Source of the DNA: a virus | Virus record (IMG/VR): IMGVR_UViG_3300017963_000623 | Location: 1-29,397 of that record | DNA length: 29,397 nt | Reading direction: 5' to 3' (one strand) | Notes under the pieces: model-generated | The model's input: only the letters and a program-made list of their open reading frames with translations | What the model was told of the DNA's origin: nothing | Databases searched by the model: none | Shown here: positions 1,692-29,397 of the stretch, piece after piece | Layout: every line of letters starts with the position of its first letter | Position numbering within the stretch: position 1 is the first letter of the stretch | Program-made: the position numbers and the translations under genes

Positions 1692-2549
1692 ATGGCATAC
1701 GTTCGAGTTTCATACGCACGCAATACCTCGCTGACCGAGCTCAACCGCGCGATGAATCAGAATGCTCTTTACATCGCCGAGGCGATAGCATTCCAAACTG
1801 TGCGCGAAGACAACTTAGTCAAAGTGTTAGAAACTGACATTGCTGGGACTCTCGATAGCAAGTTTTTAGCTGGAGACGGGTTTGAAAATAATATTAGCCT
1901 AGGCGGGCCGTACGGCGCCGTATTAATCCAGACCGTACTGACTCCAGGTGATACAATAGATGCAAGCCCTGGCAATCTGAAAGTTGGAGTTTTGAACGAT
2001 GAAAACCATGGCAATAGAGCAGGAGGTGATCTCCATCCGTTAGCCACACCTCAATCTGCGGGTTTTATGTCTACACAAGACAAGACTGTTGCCGATCTAA
2101 TCATCATAGCTTACGGCTTTATTTACCGCACTGTGCAGGTTTCGGTCACTCCGCCGGTAGCTCCCGCAACGCAAATTTTGTTGTTCGACACAGCAGGAGA
2201 ATCCCAAAATACAACTTTGATCCCAGCTTCGGGAATAATACGAATGTTTCAGAAAGGATTGTGGCAAATAGAATTCAATATGACGGCAGAAAAGACAACA
2301 GGGACCTCTGATGAGTTGTACATATCTTTTGTAAAAAAACCCGCAGGAGCCCCCCCAGTAACGTTGCCTCAGGTTCGGCTGGTCAAGTATTTTGATCGGT
2401 TCTTGCCTCTCACCACTCTGCACTTTTCCGCCACACTGATGGAGGAATTTGACAACGGTGATGAGGTTTGGGTCGAAATAAGCTCCCGCAGTGGAGGTGC
2501 GTTCTTTTTCGAATCTGGCAACCTGTCTGCACAAAAGATAGGCGACTAA
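1692..2549 (+). CDS. Appendage protein: GFMS linker module plus C1q-like jelly roll
   Basis: A 285-residue protein with three parts: an N-terminal helical segment (residues about 10-50); the linker module around residues 95-140 (VGVLNDENHG, GGDLHPLAT, GFMSTQDK); and a C-terminal jelly roll (residues about 155-285) containing GLWQIEF and the near-terminal VWVEISSRSG. The GFMS-x-x-D-K module is a familiar element of phage tail and fibre proteins. The jelly roll is C1q/TNF-like by pattern only. Closest relative in the window is the next gene, with the same domain order. Likely a trimeric receptor-binding subunit. The start follows AAAGGGAAAAC. Confidence 0.78.
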   Translation: MAYVRVSYARNTSLTELNRAMNQNALYIAEAIAFQTVREDNLVKVLETDIAGTLDSKFLAGDGFENNISLGGPYGAVLIQTVLTPGDTIDASPGNLKVGVLNDENHGNRAGGDLHPLATPQSAGFMSTQDKTVADLIIIAYGFIYRTVQVSVTPPVAPATQILLFDTAGESQNTTLIPASGIIRMFQKGLWQIEFNMTAEKTTGTSDELYISFVKKPAGAPPVTLPQVRLVKYFDRFLPLTTLHFSATLMEEFDNGDEVWVEISSRSGGAFFFESGNLSAQKIGD

Positions 2550-2566
2550 GAAAAAAGGAGACCACA

Positions 2567-3439
2567 ATGCCTTTCCGCATGAAGTATTACACGCCTGTGT
2601 CAACCGATCTGCTATCGATAAATGACGCGTTTTATCGCAACCAAAAAAACGCTGGTGACTTCATAGATGTTGTATTTGCCGAAGCTGAAAATTTAGTTAG
2701 GGTGAACTCAAACGATCCTGTTTCATCATACCTACAACACAAGCTCCTTGGCGGACCGGGTTTGGTTGCATCAAACGAATTTTTTATAGTGACTTGGAAG
2801 CGCCGACTGGATGTCGTAAACAATGATGGGTCGATTGTGGTCGGCGCCGATTCTTTGGCCCTAGGCACGATCAACAACACCCAACACGGGCAACGAAGTG
2901 CAGGCGAACTACATCCTTTGGCAACGTTTAGCACGCCCGGATTTATGTCCGCCGAAGCAAAGGCATTGATCGAAGAGATCCCTCCTTCTTTTGGTAGTAT
3001 GTATAGAACCACACCTCTTGGAATCGATTGCTTGTTGCCTCAACCTGAGGGGTACAAATTGACGTTTGAGTCTGTTACGCCTGGCAGGGATATGGTATAC
3101 GATCCTGCAAACGGCACAATGACAGTTACACGCGAAGGTATGTACAAGATCACATTTAGCGGAGAATTTGAAAACGCCGTTCTTTCGGGGGTCGCTACAA
3201 AAATGTATTTTGCCTTTTACTATTCAACCCCACCAAGCGGTACGCGGATAAACATCCCCAATTGTGGGGTGTTCAAAAACATAACCTATACTTCTCCAAG
3301 TCGAGAAGAAACACTAACACAATCAATCATTACCCGGCTTCCAGCAAACGCCAGCGTTTGGGTAGAAATTGCATGTAGCCGCGCCCAACCGCTGCGTCAA
3401 AACGCTTCGAACTTGTCGTTGGTTAGGTTGGCGGCGTAA
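2567..3439 (+). CDS. Appendage protein: GFMS linker module plus C1q-like jelly roll (paralogue)
   Basis: A 290-residue protein. The ATG at 2567 was chosen over an in-frame upstream ATG at 2468 because AAGGAG at 2555-2560 precedes it, the upstream start lies inside the previous gene, and homology with the 1692 protein begins here. Domain order is N-terminal helix, NNDGSI, GTINNTQHG, GELHPLAT, GFMSAEAK, connector MYRT, then a C-terminal jelly roll containing GMYKITF and VWVEIACSRA. It is a diverged tandem paralogue of the preceding gene. Receptor binding is inferred from the domain order and the cluster, not from any visible catalytic site. Confidence 0.8.
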   Translation: MPFRMKYYTPVSTDLLSINDAFYRNQKNAGDFIDVVFAEAENLVRVNSNDPVSSYLQHKLLGGPGLVASNEFFIVTWKRRLDVVNNDGSIVVGADSLALGTINNTQHGQRSAGELHPLATFSTPGFMSAEAKALIEEIPPSFGSMYRTTPLGIDCLLPQPEGYKLTFESVTPGRDMVYDPANGTMTVTREGMYKITFSGEFENAVLSGVATKMYFAFYYSTPPSGTRINIPNCGVFKNITYTSPSREETLTQSIITRLPANASVWVEIACSRAQPLRQNASNLSLVRLAA

Positions 3440-3484
3440 AAACAAGTTTTCAGGGTTCGCTTCAAAAATCTCCGAGAGGTCATC

Positions 3485-5668
3485 ATGGCGTTAGCCCCAA
3501 GATTGAAAAAAGTAAACAAAATAGATATCCAGCAAGTCTTGGATAGGATGTACAAGAAATTGCAATCCGCCTTGGCGGTGATTTTTGCTGGAGATCTTAC
3601 CGGCGACGCAACATCCCAAACGGTAGTGGGTATCCAAGGACGTTCTGTGGCATCCGACCCGCCAGGGGATGGCGACATGTACACTTGGAACAACTTGTCG
3701 TCACAGTGGGAACCGACTCCGCTGGCATTTTCAGGAGACCTCACTGGAGATTCGTCCTCGCAAACGGTAGTGGGTATCCAAACTAGGACTGTATCAGCAG
3801 CAGCCCCCGCAGACAGAGACGTTTTGATCTGGGATGATTTTGCATCCCAATGGGTACCCGGAGATTTGCCGTTCGCGGTGGTGGACACCGTTGCAGAGCT
3901 TGCCGCGTACGACACTTCGGGGTTGGAAAACAGCGTGACGTTTTGGGTACGTTCTGTCCGCGATGAATGGATTTTGGAAAAAGATACCACACAACCCTTT
4001 TTTCCGGACAACATCACCATTTGCAATGCCACGCCTACGGGCAAATGGAGAAGGCGGCTGCTACCAAACCCATACTGGACCTATCAGTTTTCCTCTCCTC
4101 GCGATTGGTACATCGACATCGTAAACGGCGACGACGAAAACGACGGAACAACATTTGGGACGGCGCTTGAAACGTGGGCTGAGTTCCGCCGCCGAGCGCA
4201 GCAATCCTTTTTGCCCATTCAGTCCGCAACCGTGTACATCGGGGAACGTGGCCTTTTCTCGAGCGATCAAATCGAAGGGCAGTTCAACCTCGATGAGCAG
4301 GCAGACTTGAACATTACGGGTTTGCCGGAGCTCGTCGATCAAGGCACTGTGCAAAACTTCACCCGAAACCCTGCCGCGGGTGATGAGGGCACACTAACTG
4401 CTACAGCAGCCCAATTTTGGGGGTACGGCTACTTTTTCCGTTTTACGTCCGGCCCTCTAACCGGATACACCTTCTATCTGCATGCATCTCTTGGAGGCAA
4501 CAGCTACGCATGCTCAAGAATCTTGCGCTACTTTAGTGGAGCTACATACATCCCAGCTGGAGTCAATCCAAATCCAGGCGACACTTTCGATGTTTTCGAA
4601 CAACCAGCTTGCTACCTTGGCGCGCTGGCTATCTCCGCTCCGGCTGCGCGCACAACAAACGATCTAAACTTTATATTCCGATCGGTGTCGCTAAACTCTA
4701 GCATAGCTGTTCCTATAGTAACTGGCAACGCCGCTTATGTAGACACCACATTACTCGCTGAGTTTGAAGCTGGCGGAAATTCTTGGATGATCAATGTGTA
4801 CGTCTCAGGATTCTTTTATGCTTCAGGGTATTTCAAGTTTTCAGGGGGCGTGCTTGAGCTAAACAATGGTAGTGTCTTTTACACGAGAAGCATTGCGAAT
4901 TTTGCAGACGATCCGGTGCAAAACTGGAACGGCCTTGAAGTTCAGGATGGGGCATTAGTTAACATTGAAGACTGGTATGTAATCCGGAACATCTACAACG
5001 CCCGAGGTTGGACAGTGGGCGGAAAGATGAAGTTTGATGGGGGTTCTCTTTCGGGCGTCATCGGTACCGGTTCTGCAATCATGCTCCGCCCCGGAGCGCA
5101 GGTATACCTCGATCGAGACTTTCAGTGGCCGCTTACCATCACTGTTCCCACCCCGGGGCAGGAAATCCAAATCCTTGGCGGAACCGCCGAATACCGCAGC
5201 TGGACCGAAATACCTTGGAACGACTCCCACAGGATGATTGTGGTGTCCGATGCTGTGGAAGGCAAATCCACGACGTTGACGGGAGGATACACATACGAAA
5301 CTATCAAAGTCGGCTACCTTGGAGCCGGTCCGGTTGCGCCCAATCTGACGCAATTTCTGCTGCCTAACTTTACGTTGAGCTTGACAGACATCTTGGAGCA
5401 CACAGTCCAAAACAATACCACACTGAGAAAACTCAGAGTAAGAGCCGCAGTGGCACCCGTCGGTGAAAACAACACGTTCGAGGTGCTCGTCAATGGTGCT
5501 CCTCTTGTTCCAGCATGGATTCTAACATTGAATGCTGGCGCGTTTACAGCGCAAGACACCACATCAAATTACCAAGTGCTTGCTGGTGATACCGTAAGCG
5601 TTCGAGCTACGTCACCGGGAGCAGGCACATCCGCAGCAGATGTGGTCTGTGAACTGGAAGCTGCATAG
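3485..5668 (+). CDS. Large tail-spike-like protein with duplicated TVVG modules and beta-helix core
   Basis: A 727-residue protein and the largest appendage gene. Residues about 9-25 carry the cluster's N-terminal motif (KIDIQQVLDRM). Two tandem copies of a fibre linker follow (DLTGDxxSQTVVGIQ then a W-x-P-containing end, residues about 36-125). Next comes a DWYIDIVNGDDENDGTTFGTA segment (about residue 206), the usual opening of pectate-lyase-like or DUF1565-like beta-helices. The middle is Gly/Asn-rich strand repeats. The last 90 residues (LRVRAAV, FEVLVNG, VSVRATS) look like a jelly roll. The domain order suggests a spike that binds or degrades a surface polymer. AGAGG precedes the start. 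The catalytic site is not identifiable. Confidence 0.82.
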   Translation: MALAPRLKKVNKIDIQQVLDRMYKKLQSALAVIFAGDLTGDATSQTVVGIQGRSVASDPPGDGDMYTWNNLSSQWEPTPLAFSGDLTGDSSSQTVVGIQTRTVSAAAPADRDVLIWDDFASQWVPGDLPFAVVDTVAELAAYDTSGLENSVTFWVRSVRDEWILEKDTTQPFFPDNITICNATPTGKWRRRLLPNPYWTYQFSSPRDWYIDIVNGDDENDGTTFGTALETWAEFRRRAQQSFLPIQSATVYIGERGLFSSDQIEGQFNLDEQADLNITGLPELVDQGTVQNFTRNPAAGDEGTLTATAAQFWGYGYFFRFTSGPLTGYTFYLHASLGGNSYACSRILRYFSGATYIPAGVNPNPGDTFDVFEQPACYLGALAISAPAARTTNDLNFIFRSVSLNSSIAVPIVTGNAAYVDTTLLAEFEAGGNSWMINVYVSGFFYASGYFKFSGGVLELNNGSVFYTRSIANFADDPVQNWNGLEVQDGALVNIEDWYVIRNIYNARGWTVGGKMKFDGGSLSGVIGTGSAIMLRPGAQVYLDRDFQWPLTITVPTPGQEIQILGGTAEYRSWTEIPWNDSHRMIVVSDAVEGKSTTLTGGYTYETIKVGYLGAGPVAPNLTQFLLPNFTLSLTDILEHTVQNNTTLRKLRVRAAVAPVGENNTFEVLVNGAPLVPAWILTLNAGAFTAQDTTSNYQVLAGDTVSVRATSPGAGTSAADVVCELEAA
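3617..3781 (+). repeat. Exact 21-bp direct repeat marking duplicated fibre module
   Basis: The same 21 bases occur at 3617-3637 and 3761-3781, encoding the SQTVVGIQ core of the two linker modules in the surrounding spike gene. The 144-bp spacing is a multiple of three, so the duplication adds one complete module in frame. Flanking bases are diverged, so the duplication is not very recent. Confidence 0.85.
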
Positions 5669-5678
5669 GAGACGAAAC

Positions 5679-6098
5679 ATGAAAAACCCGAAACTTGTGG
5701 TCCCTCCTCGAACCGTATGCTGTGTTTACGTATTCACCGCAAACGGCGTAACCTATAAAACGATCTTACACAACGAGGTCGTAGCAAAGCGCATCGCCGA
5801 AGGGCATCTACGCGATGCTATGGCAATCCCTGAAAAAATTGTGGCTTTGCGTCAAGATGCCTCCTTAGAAGAAACATTCAACTTTGAAAGCTTGACGTTG
5901 GCTATGGGCGCGCACTTACCCGGGGATGCATCTCAAAATGCAATCAATCTAAGAGCGCGTGTACTACACCATACAGACCCCGGAGCAGAGCACCCCGCTT
6001 GGGTGGCGAAGCTTACCGAAGGCGCCCAGATCTTTTTGAAAAGATCCTCCTTATGGCCTGGTGTGCAACAGCAACTAGAGCAGCTGCTTGCGCAGTAG
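5679..6098 (+). CDS. Hypothetical protein in the appendage cluster
   Basis: A 139-residue protein. The ATG at 5679 is preceded by AGGAGA and lies 10 bases after the spike's stop. An in-frame upstream ATG inside the spike gene lacks such a site. No signal peptide or membrane segment is visible. The N-terminus has beta-strand character (VVPPRTVCCVYVF), and the C-terminus is helical with a QQQLEQLLAQ end. It lacks the N-terminal motif and linker modules of its neighbours, so it may be an accessory or assembly factor for the preceding spike, but no family was recognised. Translational coupling with the spike is likely from the spacing. Confidence 0.7.
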   Translation: MKNPKLVVPPRTVCCVYVFTANGVTYKTILHNEVVAKRIAEGHLRDAMAIPEKIVALRQDASLEETFNFESLTLAMGAHLPGDASQNAINLRARVLHHTDPGAEHPAWVAKLTEGAQIFLKRSSLWPGVQQQLEQLLAQ

Positions 6099-22839: not shown

Positions 22840-24924
22840 ATGGCACCCGTAGTCCAGTTTAAAAAAGGTATTTTTTATGCAAACACCAGCTACGACCAAA
22901 AGAAAGCCCGCGAAGCTCTCAAGGCCGCGGGATTTCGCTTTTGCTGGGGCGTCAGCTCCGGAAAATGCTGGGCGAAGTGCCCAGCTTGTAGGGCGGGGCT
23001 CCCCGCCTACAGCTGGCATACCCGCGATCTGAGCATCGCGGGGCGCTTCTACGCCAACATGGACGCCAACGCCAAAGCAGCGGTAGACCAAAGCAAAGCT
23101 GCAGAAGCGGCAAGCAGGGCCACAGATGTGGCCGTGCCCACCAATTTCAACGTGGATTGCCCCGACGGGCGCGAATACCTGCCGTACCAAAAGGCGGGGA
23201 TCGAGTGGATCGTCAAACGACAGTCTACCCTCTTGGGAGACGAAATGGGCCTCGGGAAGACGATCCAAGTACTCGGTGCGATCAACGCCGACCCCCAAAT
23301 TCGAAAGGTGCTGGTGGTCTGCCCCGCCACCCTTCGCCGGAATTGGGTGGCAGAAGCCACCCGATGGATCACCAAACCTCTGCAGGCCGGAATCGTTCAG
23401 CAGGCGGGGGACTTGCCCGCACACGAAAAAGGCAAGGTTCTGATCGTTGTGACCAACTTCGAAAGACTCACGGGAAAACGAGGGGAAGCTCTCCTCGGAG
23501 AGCTCAAAAACCACCAGTGGGACATGCTCATCATCGACGAAGCGCACAAAGTAAAGAACCCAAAGGCGCAGCGAACCCTTGCGGTCATCGGAAACCGCCA
23601 GGGCGCCGGCGGACTGGCCGAAAAGGCGTTCAAAAAAGTCTATTTGACCGGCACCCCAATCGCCAACAAGCCCGTGGAGCTCTGGGGGCTGATCTCCAGT
23701 TTGGACCCCCAAACCTGGCGAAATTTTATGTACTACGCCAAAAGGTACTGTGCGGCTGAGCAAGTTTGGGCCGGCCGTAAGATGGTTTGGGATTTCAGCG
23801 GTGCCCAAAATCTCGAGGAGTTGCAGCGTAGACTCCGCACCGAGAACGGTGGTCTCATGATTCGCAGGCTCAAGAAAGACGTGCTAACCGAGCTCCCGGC
23901 CAAGCGCCGGGTGCTCACGGTGCTTGAGCCCAACGGGGCATCGGGCGTCATCGCAAAAGAGCAAGCCGCGTGGGAAAAGGTCCAAGAGCAAGTCGATTTG
24001 GCCCGCGCGGCACTTTTGATCGCCCAAGAGCAGGCCGACAAGGCGGCCTACGAAGAAGCAGTCAAGAACCTCCAAGCCTGCACCCGGGTGGCTTTCGAGG
24101 AAATCGCCGCGGCCCGAAGGGACACCGCCGTTGCAAAGATCCCCCACGCGGTTGAGCACCTGCGCGACATGCTCGAGGATAACCAAGAAAAAGTCGTGGT
24201 GTTCGCCCACCACCACGCGGTGGTGGACGGCATCATGGAAGGATTGGCAGAGTTCGGGCCCGTCAGGCTCACCGGCAAAGACTCAGACCAGGCCAAAAAC
24301 GACGCCGTCAAGCAGTTCCAAGAAAATCCCACGTGCAGGGTCTTCGTGGGCAACATCCTGGCGGCCGGGGTGGGGATCACCCTAACAGCTTCCAGCAACG
24401 TCGTTTTTGCCGAACTGGACTATGTGCCCGCAAACATGAGCCAGGCTGAGGATCGATGCCACCGCATAGGTCAAAAAGACTCCGTCTTGGTCCAGCATTT
24501 GGTGCTGGACGGGTCCCTTGATCAGCGTATGGCCGCCACGCTGATCAAAAAGCAGGCAATCTGTGATGGCGCTCTGGACGCCCAGCTCGGAAACGATCCC
24601 ATCTACCTCGACGACAGCGAGACGGGCCCGGGGCGCAGACCACCTCAGTACACCAAAGACACGCACGACGCCGCACTCGAGGCCATCCGCACCATTGCGG
24701 GGTACTGCGACGGCGCCGCCTCCCGAGACAATGCCGGGTTCTCGAAATTCTGGACCAAGCCCGGCAAATGGCTGGCAGCCAAAAGCGAACTGACAGATCG
24801 GCAGGTAGCGCTCGTCATCCGGATCGCCGGGTATCATCACAGGCAGCTCACCGACGACCAGCTGGCCAAACTGGGCATCACCAGACCCACAAGCAAAGCC
24901 CGCAAGGTCAGCAAAACTAAGTAA
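22840..24924 (+). CDS. SNF2-family DNA helicase/translocase
   Basis: A 694-residue protein with the SNF2 (SF2) motif series: GDEMGLGKT at 133-141 (Walker A), LVVCPATLRRNW (Ia), DEAH at 233-236 (Walker B), LTGTP at 269-273 (III), VVVFAHHHA (IV region), GVGITLTASS near 511 (V) and QAEDRCHRIGQ near 535-545 (VI). The N-terminal 100 residues hold a small domain with Cys43, Cys47 and Cys50 that may bind zinc. After the helicase core a C-terminal segment (DGAASRDNAGF, then LTDRQVALVIRIAGYHHRQL) is shared in pattern with phage replication proteins. It would use ATP to move on duplex DNA, for example in replication, recombination or fork remodelling. AGGAG precedes the start. Confidence 0.92.
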   Translation: MAPVVQFKKGIFYANTSYDQKKAREALKAAGFRFCWGVSSGKCWAKCPACRAGLPAYSWHTRDLSIAGRFYANMDANAKAAVDQSKAAEAASRATDVAVPTNFNVDCPDGREYLPYQKAGIEWIVKRQSTLLGDEMGLGKTIQVLGAINADPQIRKVLVVCPATLRRNWVAEATRWITKPLQAGIVQQAGDLPAHEKGKVLIVVTNFERLTGKRGEALLGELKNHQWDMLIIDEAHKVKNPKAQRTLAVIGNRQGAGGLAEKAFKKVYLTGTPIANKPVELWGLISSLDPQTWRNFMYYAKRYCAAEQVWAGRKMVWDFSGAQNLEELQRRLRTENGGLMIRRLKKDVLTELPAKRRVLTVLEPNGASGVIAKEQAAWEKVQEQVDLARAALLIAQEQADKAAYEEAVKNLQACTRVAFEEIAAARRDTAVAKIPHAVEHLRDMLEDNQEKVVVFAHHHAVVDGIMEGLAEFGPVRLTGKDSDQAKNDAVKQFQENPTCRVFVGNILAAGVGITLTASSNVVFAELDYVPANMSQAEDRCHRIGQKDSVLVQHLVLDGSLDQRMAATLIKKQAICDGALDAQLGNDPIYLDDSETGPGRRPPQYTKDTHDAALEAIRTIAGYCDGAASRDNAGFSKFWTKPGKWLAAKSELTDRQVALVIRIAGYHHRQLTDDQLAKLGITRPTSKARKVSKTK

Positions 24925-24964: not shown

Positions 24965-26794
24965 ATGGCACCACCAAAACTCCAAGCGATCAAAGGCGGC
25001 AAACCAGAAGCCGCACCATTCGACCTAAACAAGCTCGATCTAAACGAGCAAGCCGCAAGTATCCGAAGAGTACTCCGATCCGTCAACCCTGGGATCCGCG
25101 TCACGCGGGAACGCGGCACCGCTGCAGGATGGGTCGATGTGCAACGACCCACCTACGAGAAACCACCAATCACCGATTTGCAATGGAAACAGCTCGAAAA
25201 GCTCGAAGTCGCAGACCGTTGGGGGAATCTCAAAACGATCAGCCCAGAAGATCGGAAATACTTGCTGCAAAAATGGCTGGCAGATCCAGAGCTGGCAACG
25301 CTTGTCATGGGCACAAAAACGCCCCAAGCAAAACCCAAAACCCCCACCTGGGAAGAGGTCTTCCGAGATCATAGGCACCTGCTCAGGCAAGACATCAAAC
25401 ACCGGTTCATTACAGCTGCACGTGAACAGATCCAAAAAGCGCCCAAATTCAGTTATGCCGCCATACCGCTAACATGGTTTCCTGCAGACGTAGGCGAGCT
25501 GCACAAGTCCAACGGGATATCCCATCTTATCAAGATAGGCATTTTGGCGGAAGTAAATGGAAACAAGCTTCAATTTACAGACCTTGGCCGCAAGTTTCTA
25601 GGTCAACCCATAAGTGCCGCAACCAAACCAAAAAACCCGAACGAGGCCATCCAACAAGCAGCCATCGCCGCGATTCCCGAATATCACGCTTGGATCAACG
25701 AAACGACTGGGATCGAGTGGGCGGGGTACAACCCAGATCCAAAAGATCCACAGTATCGGATTTTTGGATCTGCGGTCGAGACGTTATTTTTCACCAGAGT
25801 CAACGGCGGAAGCGCATCGATCAAGATCAAGTGGCGCTACGTTGCGGGCAAACCCGGTGAAAGCTGGGCCAACACCTACGAAGTAAGTCGCAACTTCGGA
25901 ATCCCTGGGTTTCAAGCAAATGTGCAGGATACCACCGACTATGTCAAAACCATCCAGCAAGCAGTATCTCCCGAAAAACTGCTCCCCCGCGAGGAAATGG
26001 AACGCTTCGGGATTCAAATCCAAAACATCGCCCTGACAAGAAAGCAAATCCCAACGGATTTAAACGAACGCGCCGCGATGATCCGCCGCGTGGCCAGCTC
26101 AGTCGCGCCTGGAATCAGCGTCACCCGAGGTAAGGGCACCGCTTCAGAGTATCTACGCATGAGCGAGCGCAAAAAGGGCAGCATCACGCCATCACAATGG
26201 CAACAGCTGGAAAATCTCGGGCTGGCGCTCAAAGCTGGGACCTTCGCCACACTGAGCTACGAAAATCAGGGTAACCGCATCGCAAACTACCTGGTGGACC
26301 CCCAGCTGGCACCCATAGCCATGGGAGAAAAACCAAAAACACCGCCCCCCAAGCCGGCACCACCACCCCCCAAGCCAGCACCACCACCCCCCAAGCCGGC
26401 AAAACCCAAGCGCATGTACGCCGCAGAAGTCCCCAAGACAACGCGTGTCCCACCACCACCAACTCCCTCAGTGGCAAAGGTGTACATCACCGATCCCGAC
26501 GTACTCTTCCATCTGGGCCTGATCGAAGGCGAATCGTGGAAAGCCAAACAAGCCAAACCCAACGATTCGCCATTTGGGGTGCACATGAACCGGTTTGCCT
26601 TTGAGGCCCTCCAGCGCACCGGCGAGGCCCAGCAAGGCAAAACGATCGCTGAGGTGATGCCCAGAGGGGGCGTGATCAAAGGCACCCGGGGTACCTGGTA
26701 CGCAATCGCATCAGACGGCGAAGTGCTCATGATGCGGCAATTCTCAACCCCAGAAAAACGACAACTGGCCCGAGGCATCCTACGGGTAGGATAA
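24965..26794 (+). CDS. Large protein with internally duplicated domain, Pro-rich linker and C-terminal domain
   Basis: A 609-residue protein. Two related segments (residues about 24-116 and 364-454) share DLNExAAxIRRV, then SVxPGIxVTRxxGTA, QWxQLExL and DPxLAxxxMG. Between them lies a Trp/Tyr-containing domain (residues about 240-310, EYHAWINETTGIEWAG, then ASIKIKWRYVAG). Residues about 460-475 form a KPAPPPP tandem repeat linker, and a C-terminal domain follows (VFHMN-like helix: GVHMNRFAFEALQR, ending ASDGEVLMMRQF). No catalytic motif was recognised. It is only 9 bases upstream of the clamp gene, so a replication- or repair-associated role is inferred. The duplicated domain may bind DNA or protein. 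Family unknown. Confidence 0.72.
   Translation: MAPPKLQAIKGGKPEAAPFDLNKLDLNEQAASIRRVLRSVNPGIRVTRERGTAAGWVDVQRPTYEKPPITDLQWKQLEKLEVADRWGNLKTISPEDRKYLLQKWLADPELATLVMGTKTPQAKPKTPTWEEVFRDHRHLLRQDIKHRFITAAREQIQKAPKFSYAAIPLTWFPADVGELHKSNGISHLIKIGILAEVNGNKLQFTDLGRKFLGQPISAATKPKNPNEAIQQAAIAAIPEYHAWINETTGIEWAGYNPDPKDPQYRIFGSAVETLFFTRVNGGSASIKIKWRYVAGKPGESWANTYEVSRNFGIPGFQANVQDTTDYVKTIQQAVSPEKLLPREEMERFGIQIQNIALTRKQIPTDLNERAAMIRRVASSVAPGISVTRGKGTASEYLRMSERKKGSITPSQWQQLENLGLALKAGTFATLSYENQGNRIANYLVDPQLAPIAMGEKPKTPPPKPAPPPPKPAPPPPKPAKPKRMYAAEVPKTTRVPPPPTPSVAKVYITDPDVLFHLGLIEGESWKAKQAKPNDSPFGVHMNRFAFEALQRTGEAQQGKTIAEVMPRGGVIKGTRGTWYAIASDGEVLMMRQFSTPEKRQLARGILRVG
26345..26401 (+). repeat. 21-bp Pro-rich tandem repeat
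   Basis: The period-21 unit encodes KPAPPPP at 26351-26371 and 26372-26392 with a partial third copy. A single base differs between the full units. It forms a stiff linker before the C-terminal domain of the surrounding protein. Confidence 0.88.
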
Positions 26795-26803
26795 GAGGAC
26801 AAG

Positions 26804-29397
26804 ATGTTGGTAGTAGACACAAATTCGCTAATTGCAGCCATAGACATATTAGCTAAGATCAAAGAAAAAACATACGCACGCGACGAAGTCTTCATATCAA
26901 CCGTAGACGGCGAGCTGGTGCTCACCAAATACATGAGGCAATTCGACAAAACGCATAGAGTAGAAGCCAAAGTATTGACCATCAGCAAAGACCACATTAC
27001 TCCTAAGGACGAACCCATATCAATCGAGAGCAAAGAGCTGCAAACCGTCAAAAAGGTGCTGGCGAAAACCCAAGAAGCCCAAGTATACTGGAAAGCCCCA
27101 AAAGCCAAAATAGGGCTCACATTTACAAGCGGGCAGGCAACCTACGAAATCAAAGACGCCAAGCTCGGAGGCACACCCAAAGACCTACCAAGGTCAACCG
27201 AAGCTGTAGTATACCCAAACACCACATTCAACGCGCTTTTTGCGGCAACAGCTCCCATTATGTCGCGTGACACCATGCGCGAAACCCTAAACGCGGTCCT
27301 ACTAGACGTAACCACACAAGACCTTAGTTTGGTCGCCACAGATGGACATAGACTGGTGGCTGCTACAACCAAAGCAACCAAAGCAGCCAAAGGACTAGGA
27401 AAGACCCAAATACTAATCCCAGCGTTGATAGTCGATAGCATCTTATATTGCGCCAAGCATAAAAAAGTAGGCAAAACCTCAATTGCAACCAATCCAGATG
27501 CAGCAACCTTCACCGTGGAGGTAGCCGGGGCCCAAATACGCTTTGACGTGCTTCTGGGCAACATGAACTTTCCCGATCACGCCAGCTTCCTGGCGCCTAG
27601 AGACTACGGCTGGACCACAGAAATCAACCTCACAACTGACCTACCCAAAGTCGAAAGAGTCATCAAACTTGCAGGTGTGATGGATGCTACCAGCTCCGTC
27701 GACATCACAGGAGACAATAGGGGGATTGTGCAGTTCTTCATCGACGATGAGGGGCAAAGCGCTATAGCCGCAGAGGTGGACGGCCTACGAATTGGGTACA
27801 ACCTGGCAAGCGCACCAAAAAGAGGGAAATTTTGGTATAGATCAGTGGGGATCAACGCAAAATACCTAAAGGCCGCGATCGACATGTTCGTCAAGATCCA
27901 AGACTCCCCCCAGGCCATCGAACTAGAGTTTAGAGACTACCTCGAATACGTCGCAATACGCGACACAATCGCAAACGTACGTGTGTCTACAGTTGTTATG
28001 CCAGCATCTACAGAAGGTTCAAAGGACTCGAAAGAAGACGACCCTCACTCATTTTTGAGTAAGCGTGGCCCACATTCGGGTGACACTTCGCCGGCGCCCG
28101 CAGAAATCTGGCAAGACGCTGTCAAGTTTATCGCACAGTTTACATACGCCAAATCGACTATGGCAGTATTGGCAAACATCAAAATTGACTCGCACGAAAA
28201 CATGGTGCTACTCGAAGGTAGCGATATGTACATGGAGGGGCGCACAACGATCCCAGTAGGCGCACCTGGCAACATATCCGCCCTTGTCGACGCCAAAGCC
28301 TTGAAAAAAGTGCTATCGATCTTTGATAGTGATTCTGTAATCCGCCTATCGCGACAAGAAGTTACAGGCTATGACTACCAATACCAAATAAACGTTTATG
28401 AACAACACACAGGCTTCAATGTGTCCCTAAACGGGCATTACACAGGAGACTGGCCGGGCATCCCTCAACCAAACCTCGACGACGTGACGATGACCATCTC
28501 GAGTGCAGCCTTGTCGGCTCTGGCGGCAACAACAGAGCCCTTCATTTCGACAGACACCACCAGAGTAATCCTCAACAGCGCCTACATCGAAACAGAAAAC
28601 TCCCCTCAATCAACCACGGTTCGCGTATCAGCAACCGATGGCCACCGTCTGACCGTCGCCGAAGCAGAGGCACCCCCAGGAAGCACCAACAGCACAAGCC
28701 TCATGCCTCGAGAGGCGTTCCGGCTGCTACCCTCCCTCACAAGCAAGCTTACCGGCGACGTGCGGCCAATCAGATATGGGGGCAAAAAACCCAATAAATG
28801 GTTTTACATGCCAAAAACAAGCAGCAATCAGATCGAAAGATGGATCATCTACAAAGAAGTAGACGCACAGTTTCCAAACATTGAAGATTTTGTAACCGGC
28901 ACAAGCAGCACCGGAAAACCCGATAGCATTTGGACTTGTCGCACGGAAGATCTGAAAAAAGCTTGTGCGGCCCTTGTTGCCGCAAAAGCAGAGGGCATGA
29001 TGCTTACTGACAACGAGGGCAAAATGCGTGTGGCCTCATCAGACGAGGCGATAGTGCAACAAATACCTGTTAAGTACCTTGGAAACCCACCCCACATCGG
29101 GCTAGCCCCCAAATATACGCTGGATCTATGCAACGTCATCACAGACGAGCAAGTCACATTTGCTCAATCAACACTACTAAACCCGCTAAGAACCTATGCA
29201 AATCATGGTGAGTACGTCCGCTTGTGTGGAATTTTGATGCCGATGCGATCCGGGCTAACCGAACTAAAGCCATACGGTAAACCGCTCCCCAATCAAAAAC
29301 CCATGCCCATACCAAACCAAGCACCCATGGAAGCCATCTCCAAGGCCCCCAAGGCCCCCAAGGCCCCCAAGGCCCCCAAGGCCCCCAAGGCCCCCAA
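26804..29397 (+). CDS. dnaN: Tandem fused beta sliding clamp (two DnaN-like clamps in one chain; 3' end outside window)
   Basis: One frame without stops runs from the ATG at 26804 (AGAGGA upstream) to the window end, giving at least 864 residues. Residues 1-402 form a complete clamp: domain 1 to about 136, domain 2 with ATDGHRL at 178-184 and a GNMNFPD turn near 256, domain 3 ending VVMPAS near 399. A hydrophilic linker spans about 403-434. Residues 435-817 form a second clamp with ATDGHRL at 610-616, DAQFPNIEDF near 690 and the ending MPMR at 812-815. A Pro/Lys-rich tail follows. Known clamps are homodimers of one three-domain unit of about 370 residues that encircle DNA and tether polymerase, so this chain alone could close a ring. 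Both cleft signatures remain. Confidence 0.88.
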   Translation, partial: MLVVDTNSLIAAIDILAKIKEKTYARDEVFISTVDGELVLTKYMRQFDKTHRVEAKVLTISKDHITPKDEPISIESKELQTVKKVLAKTQEAQVYWKAPKAKIGLTFTSGQATYEIKDAKLGGTPKDLPRSTEAVVYPNTTFNALFAATAPIMSRDTMRETLNAVLLDVTTQDLSLVATDGHRLVAATTKATKAAKGLGKTQILIPALIVDSILYCAKHKKVGKTSIATNPDAATFTVEVAGAQIRFDVLLGNMNFPDHASFLAPRDYGWTTEINLTTDLPKVERVIKLAGVMDATSSVDITGDNRGIVQFFIDDEGQSAIAAEVDGLRIGYNLASAPKRGKFWYRSVGINAKYLKAAIDMFVKIQDSPQAIELEFRDYLEYVAIRDTIANVRVSTVVMPASTEGSKDSKEDDPHSFLSKRGPHSGDTSPAPAEIWQDAVKFIAQFTYAKSTMAVLANIKIDSHENMVLLEGSDMYMEGRTTIPVGAPGNISALVDAKALKKVLSIFDSDSVIRLSRQEVTGYDYQYQINVYEQHTGFNVSLNGHYTGDWPGIPQPNLDDVTMTISSAALSALAATTEPFISTDTTRVILNSAYIETENSPQSTTVRVSATDGHRLTVAEAEAPPGSTNSTSLMPREAFRLLPSLTSKLTGDVRPIRYGGKKPNKWFYMPKTSSNQIERWIIYKEVDAQFPNIEDFVTGTSSTGKPDSIWTCRTEDLKKACAALVAAKAEGMMLTDNEGKMRVASSDEAIVQQIPVKYLGNPPHIGLAPKYTLDLCNVITDEQVTFAQSTLLNPLRTYANHGEYVRLCGILMPMRSGLTELKPYGKPLPNQKPMPIPNQAPMEAISKAPKAPKAPKAPKAPKAP
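29342..29397 (+). repeat. 9-bp tandem repeat (KAP) at clamp C-terminus, running off the window
   Basis: AAGGCCCCC repeats perfectly for just over six units to the last base, encoding Lys-Ala-Pro. The true number of copies is unknown because the window ends inside the array. Confidence 0.95.

Follow-up and report, generated by a model that had tools for sequence, protein, structure and literature searches.

Known bacterial beta clamps assemble as homodimers of a single unit. Because their subunits are identical, it has been hard to test whether different partners occupy both clefts of the ring at the same time, as on a tool belt, or whether the clefts are used one at a time. In E. coli, growth under the conditions tested is possible with beta rings that have only one functional cleft (PMC3022782). 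Crenarchaeal PCNA heterotrimers, which are encoded by three separate genes, provide another kind of asymmetric clamp (mentioned in PMC8357120). An engineered single-chain yeast PCNA with linkers of 11 residues closes normally (PMC2824762), and VP1, a virion protein of the virus HCIV-1, is predicted to contain two PCNA domains (PMC4958249).

The window, the whole stretch of DNA analysed here, is the entire viral record IMGVR_UViG_3300017963_000623, a linear fragment of 29,397 bases. Unlike the bacterial beta clamp (DnaN), the clamp encoded at its 3′ end consists of two diverged units, 15% identical to each other (alignment A1), in one chain with two different clefts, and each half shares with E. 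coli beta (2pol) the three-domain fold over its whole length as well as the cleft motif. Clamp subunits are joined end to end through a flexible linker, as in the engineered yeast PCNA; that protein is man-made and holds three copies, identical save for two point mutations in the first, whereas the window's chain is natural and holds two diverged DnaN-type units. The ring proposed below would have two differing clefts, as the E. coli beta heterodimers have, but those are assembled from two separate mutant gene products, whereas the asymmetry here lies in one gene. It would share with the crenarchaeal heterotrimers a ring of non-identical subunits, although these are of the PCNA type and come from three genes, whereas the window's are of the DnaN type and come from one. 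The window's protein and HCIV-1 VP1 have in common that two sliding-clamp domains are predicted in one viral protein, but VP1 is a virion protein of the PCNA type in a virus with no recognised DNA polymerase, whereas the window's units are of the DnaN type and keep their clefts. The window's protein is a variant of the beta clamp, found on a single contig.

We estimate at roughly two in three the probability that two diverged DnaN-type units here form, as one chain, the processivity clamp of a tailed phage, a pseudo-heterodimeric beta clamp. In the material searched here, the route from a homo-oligomer to an asymmetric ring of one chain is represented for PCNA solely by engineered proteins, by separate genes and by a virion protein. 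If the window's protein is indeed a closed monomeric ring, bacterial-type clamps can go from a homo-oligomer to an asymmetric ring of one chain, and in such a natural ring with differing clefts each cleft could be altered alone in one gene.

Two clamp units in one open reading frame

The open reading frame of the fused double clamp (26804–29397) lies, like all features of the window described here, on the plus strand. It runs from an ATG at 26804 for at least 864 codons (26804–29395) with no stop up to the contig end, and a putative ribosome-binding site, AGAGGA (26794–26799), is read 4 bases upstream of the ATG. The contig terminates within a 9-bp tandem repeat (29340–29397, 6.4 copies), and since the frame is still open at 29397 inside this repeat, the record stops before the gene does. 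The double-clamp protein is at least 864 residues long, and its C-terminal end lies beyond the contig. The last visible part is a Lys/Pro/Ala-rich tail (29255–29397), encoded partly by the array of 9-bp units, and further domains may lie beyond it.

One translated chain carries two complete three-domain DnaN-type clamps, as judged from the sequence and the predicted structure. The whole chain passes the curated Pfam cut-offs for PF00712 (33.8 bits, cut-off 24.4), PF02767 (63.1 bits, cut-off 27) and PF02768 (28.6 bits, cut-off 27), and both TIGR00663 (E 1.8e-34) and phrog_947 (1.8e-49) align to two stretches of it. The whole chain reaches 119.3 bits against TIGR00663, below the cut-off of 137.65 for the dnaN equivalog, that is the chromosomal-type DnaN, and with two units in one frame it departs from the single-unit, homodimeric clamp that this family describes. 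With the window excluded to guard against circularity, 82 other clamp domains were used to build a profile. It gives the N-terminal half 75.3 bits (2.2e-25) and the C-terminal half 162.3 bits (7.6e-52), and its filters reject all of 1,000 shuffled halves. The weakest part by sequence is domain I of unit 1, which is the most divergent, and the match of the window-free profile begins at position 75.

The structure of residues 1–819 was predicted by AlphaFold in two runs, one guided by an alignment of 20 clamps to the first half and the other by an alignment of 40 clamps to the second, because MAFFT placed single clamps on one half only. In the first-half run, residues 1–403 have pLDDT values of mostly 65–93 except for a loop at 327–344, and the model of residues 1–404 matches solved beta clamps end to end, with a Z score of 33.7 and an rmsd of 3.3 over 360 residues for 1vpk and a Z score of 32.8 for E. 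coli beta 2pol. In the second-half run, residues 426–817 have pLDDT values of mostly 71–97, about 90, and the model of residues 426–816 matches 7ybd with a Z score of 38.8 and an rmsd of 2.0. In each run the half without an alignment has low confidence, and the models carry no information on ring closure. The first three-domain unit thus delimited comprises residues 1–402 (26804–28009) and the second residues 426–817 (28079–29254). Between them, a linker of about 22 residues (residues 403–425; 28010–28078) has pLDDT values below 50 in both models (404–424 low) and is predicted to be disordered. Cut-offs, fold and cleft residues together place the chain in the beta-clamp superfamily (Pfam PF00712, PF02767, PF02768; phrog_947).

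An initial annotation, made from the sequence alone, had proposed a single continuous frame with two DnaN-type clamps, and TIGR00663, phrog_947, the window-free profile and AlphaFold all bear this out over the 864 open codons; fold prediction for each half, which it had suggested, returned a clamp both times. Its division into two units also stands, but the second clamp begins near residues 426–431, slightly before the residue 435 given there. It was right about the continuity of the frame, but the chain that it read through lacks a 3′ stop too and so does not extend to the protein end.

Clefts, subunit interface and the proposed ring

The cleft motif ATDGHRL is present in both units, at residues 178–184 (27335–27355) in unit 1 and at residues 610–616 (28631–28651) in unit 2. 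The tail of the cleft is the canonical MPMR in unit 2 (residues 812–815; 29237–29248), whereas unit 1 has MPAS (residues 399–402; 27998–28009), with Ala and Ser in place of Met364 and Arg365 of E. coli beta. In E. coli numbering, unit 2 has 13 of the 13 consensus residues of the cleft and unit 1 has 11, the missing ones being Met364 and Arg365. The sequence therefore indicates that both peptide-binding clefts are kept and that they are not identical. All the residues named in the initial annotation are found, including, besides the two cleft motifs, the FP turns at 256–257 and 690–691 and the MP endings at 399–400 (VVMPAS) and 812–813 (LMPMR), and its view of two non-identical clefts agrees with the consensus counts.

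The subunit interface appears to have changed far more. Nine charged residues were taken to represent the inter-subunit contacts of E. coli beta; the Salmonella clamp has all nine. None of the nine occurs in either unit of the window's clamp, whereas 74 background clamps have between 1 and 8 of them, although the alignment at the edges is uncertain and the sequences are very divergent. The E. coli ring owes much of its stability to electrostatic contacts (PMC4041429). So the clefts have been kept while the interface appears to have been rebuilt or weakened. Since a covalent link would tolerate a rebuilt or weakened interface, the loss of interface charges is compatible with a single chain, but it could also mean that the interface is simply weakened.

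Units 1 and 2 would pair head to tail within the chain to form a six-domain ring around DNA, a pseudo-heterodimer in which covalent linkage would offset the loss of interface charges in both units, and such a closure of the chain is likely. The ring would have one tethered seam, between domain III of unit 1 and domain I of unit 2, spanned by the linker, and one free seam, between domain III of unit 2 and domain I of unit 1. When delta, a subunit of the E. coli loader, docks on one protomer, it contacts the cleft together with domain III, and the seam that this domain III forms is loosened (structure 1jql). By analogy, docking of the loader at the canonical tail of unit 2 would open the free, untethered seam because MPMR lies on unit 2, and opening at the tethered seam would be disfavoured by the altered tail of unit 1. 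Unit 2 would then serve the loader and the polymerase, and the site on unit 1 would be weakened or specialised. This mechanism predicts that a change in the cleft of unit 2 would abolish loading and that a change in the cleft of unit 1 would not. A fuller version, which we hold tentatively, makes the protein an obligate one-chain beta clamp of natural origin, with a tethered and a free seam, whose canonical cleft serves loader and polymerase and whose altered cleft serves another partner, and derives it from phages with two adjacent clamp genes.

The chain might instead fail to close on itself; its partner could then be another such chain or the host clamp, as in a two-chain assembly with swapped halves. 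Clamp units as a rule pair strongly (PMC4041429), and with the interface charges absent from both halves, their natural pairing surface is uncertain. But the linker of about 22 residues holds the two halves close, and the engineered single-chain PCNA forms a closed ring (PMC2824762), so that pairing between chains is unlikely.

Relatives, gene neighbourhood and integrity of the fusion

The clamp gene adjoins a region with a helicase and lies away from the recognisable tail genes. The helicase is of the SNF2 type (22840–24924; phrog_62, PF00176) and is followed by a gene for a 609-residue protein with no family assigned (24965–26794), whose stop codon touches the AGAGGA of the clamp gene. Searches with this neighbour found no family and no phage match; it shows an internal duplication (IRRV..SV.PGI.VTR..GTA) and Pro/Lys repeats.

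A role outside processivity, for instance as a virion protein or within a larger multidomain protein carried along with the phage DNA, would recall the two PCNA domains predicted in VP1 of HCIV-1 (PMC4958249). Among the best 50 viral matches of the second-half model, the only chain of more than 600 residues is an uncharacterised protein of this virus, Haloarcula californiae icosahedral virus 1 (an 804-residue model), but the match to the window, whose units are of the DnaN type, is weak (TMt 0.35). Such a role would also fit with a double-clamp frame that is unclosed at its 3′ end, and with a full clamp found inside a 2,825-codon frame of another viral contig. A purely structural role, however, would not require that both clefts be kept together with their TDGHR core, and the gene stands beside a helicase and not among tail genes. 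Taken together, this role is also improbable.

Relatives were collected as 401 loci, taken from phage records or found by scanning viral contigs and bacterial genomes. They contain 248 distinct proteins with a full-length clamp, and only the window's has two clamps. The initial annotation knew of no described natural fused beta clamp, and the solved structures, 50,697 phage records and open-licence papers searched here contained none. The double-clamp protein has no match in 2.9 million viral contigs, megablast against phages gave no near relative, and a DNA word from the linker had no match, all in collections outside which records near the window's genome may fall. No double clamp was found in 61 Bacteroidota genomes, and plasmids gave single DnaN matches only. 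In the Thermus phages MN1 and phiLo, the genes next to the helicase were considered as candidates for a second double clamp and rejected, as they had no match to the window's.

Tandem but unfused clamp genes occur in two other viral records. In L086, a Hymenobacter metallilatus prophage (the same as L173), the genes lie at 3433–4659 and 4674–5819, 11 bases apart, and their products are 33% identical. In L083 they lie at 1159–2232 and 2234–3361, and the first lacks the cleft motif and tail, yet matches phrog_947 over its whole length. L086 and L083 show that neighbouring clamp genes are maintained in phages, and the fusion could plausibly have arisen from such a pair. Both pairs lie upstream of a gene for a helicase-methyltransferase fusion, directly in L083 and with one small gene between in L086; the window's clamp lies downstream of its SNF2-type helicase, which is only about 20% identical to these helicase-methyltransferases. 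When 80 loci of the helicase-methyltransferase family were scanned, a clamp match was found in the flanks of only 5. In the family tree the two halves have branches of 3.5 and 2.7 and are grouped with a support of only 63/71, neither being placed, and the tree is compatible with both a fusion of two sources and an internal duplication.

The existence of unfused tandem pairs also raises the question of whether the fused chain is cut in the linker to give a heterodimer of two clamps, such as the phages with tandem genes could make. The linker is predicted to be disordered and would be accessible; cleavage is unneeded, however, in phages with separate clamp genes, and we consider a polyprotein of this kind quite improbable. 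The sequence gives no sign of separate translation of the second half either: domain I of the second unit begins without a start codon, and no in-frame ATG, GTG or TTG with a ribosome-binding site is present in codons 394–468. The flanks of the junction have no exact repeat longer than 11 bases, and the codon usage of the two halves correlates at 0.66, against 0.49–0.88 for other gene pairs in the window. An assembly or sequencing error that joined two neighbouring clamp genes is very unlikely as the source of the fusion, which is known from one contig only and which a small frame-keeping error in tandem genes like those of other phages could mimic, because the linker is in frame within 864 codons without a stop, no credible start codon stands where the second half begins, no such repeat surrounds the junction and codon usage is similar on both sides.

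Other clamp-like arrangements were seen among the relatives. The 2,825-codon frame mentioned above (L263/L320, 2533–11007) has its full clamp at about residues 1575–1970. A 762-codon frame of Hymenobacter metallilatus (L319, 2298–4583, minus strand) encodes a clamp-like stretch that lacks domain I and continues into a long C-terminal region of unrelated sequence. Short clamps of about 233–254 residues are found in L267 (4929–5630), L298 (1799–2560), L301 (4860–5558), L317 and L318; they comprise the middle domain but no more than the end of the third, and the region of the cleft motif is kept. For the two short clamps tested, the best match is a PHROG labelled RusA-like resolvase, a label that is probably wrong.
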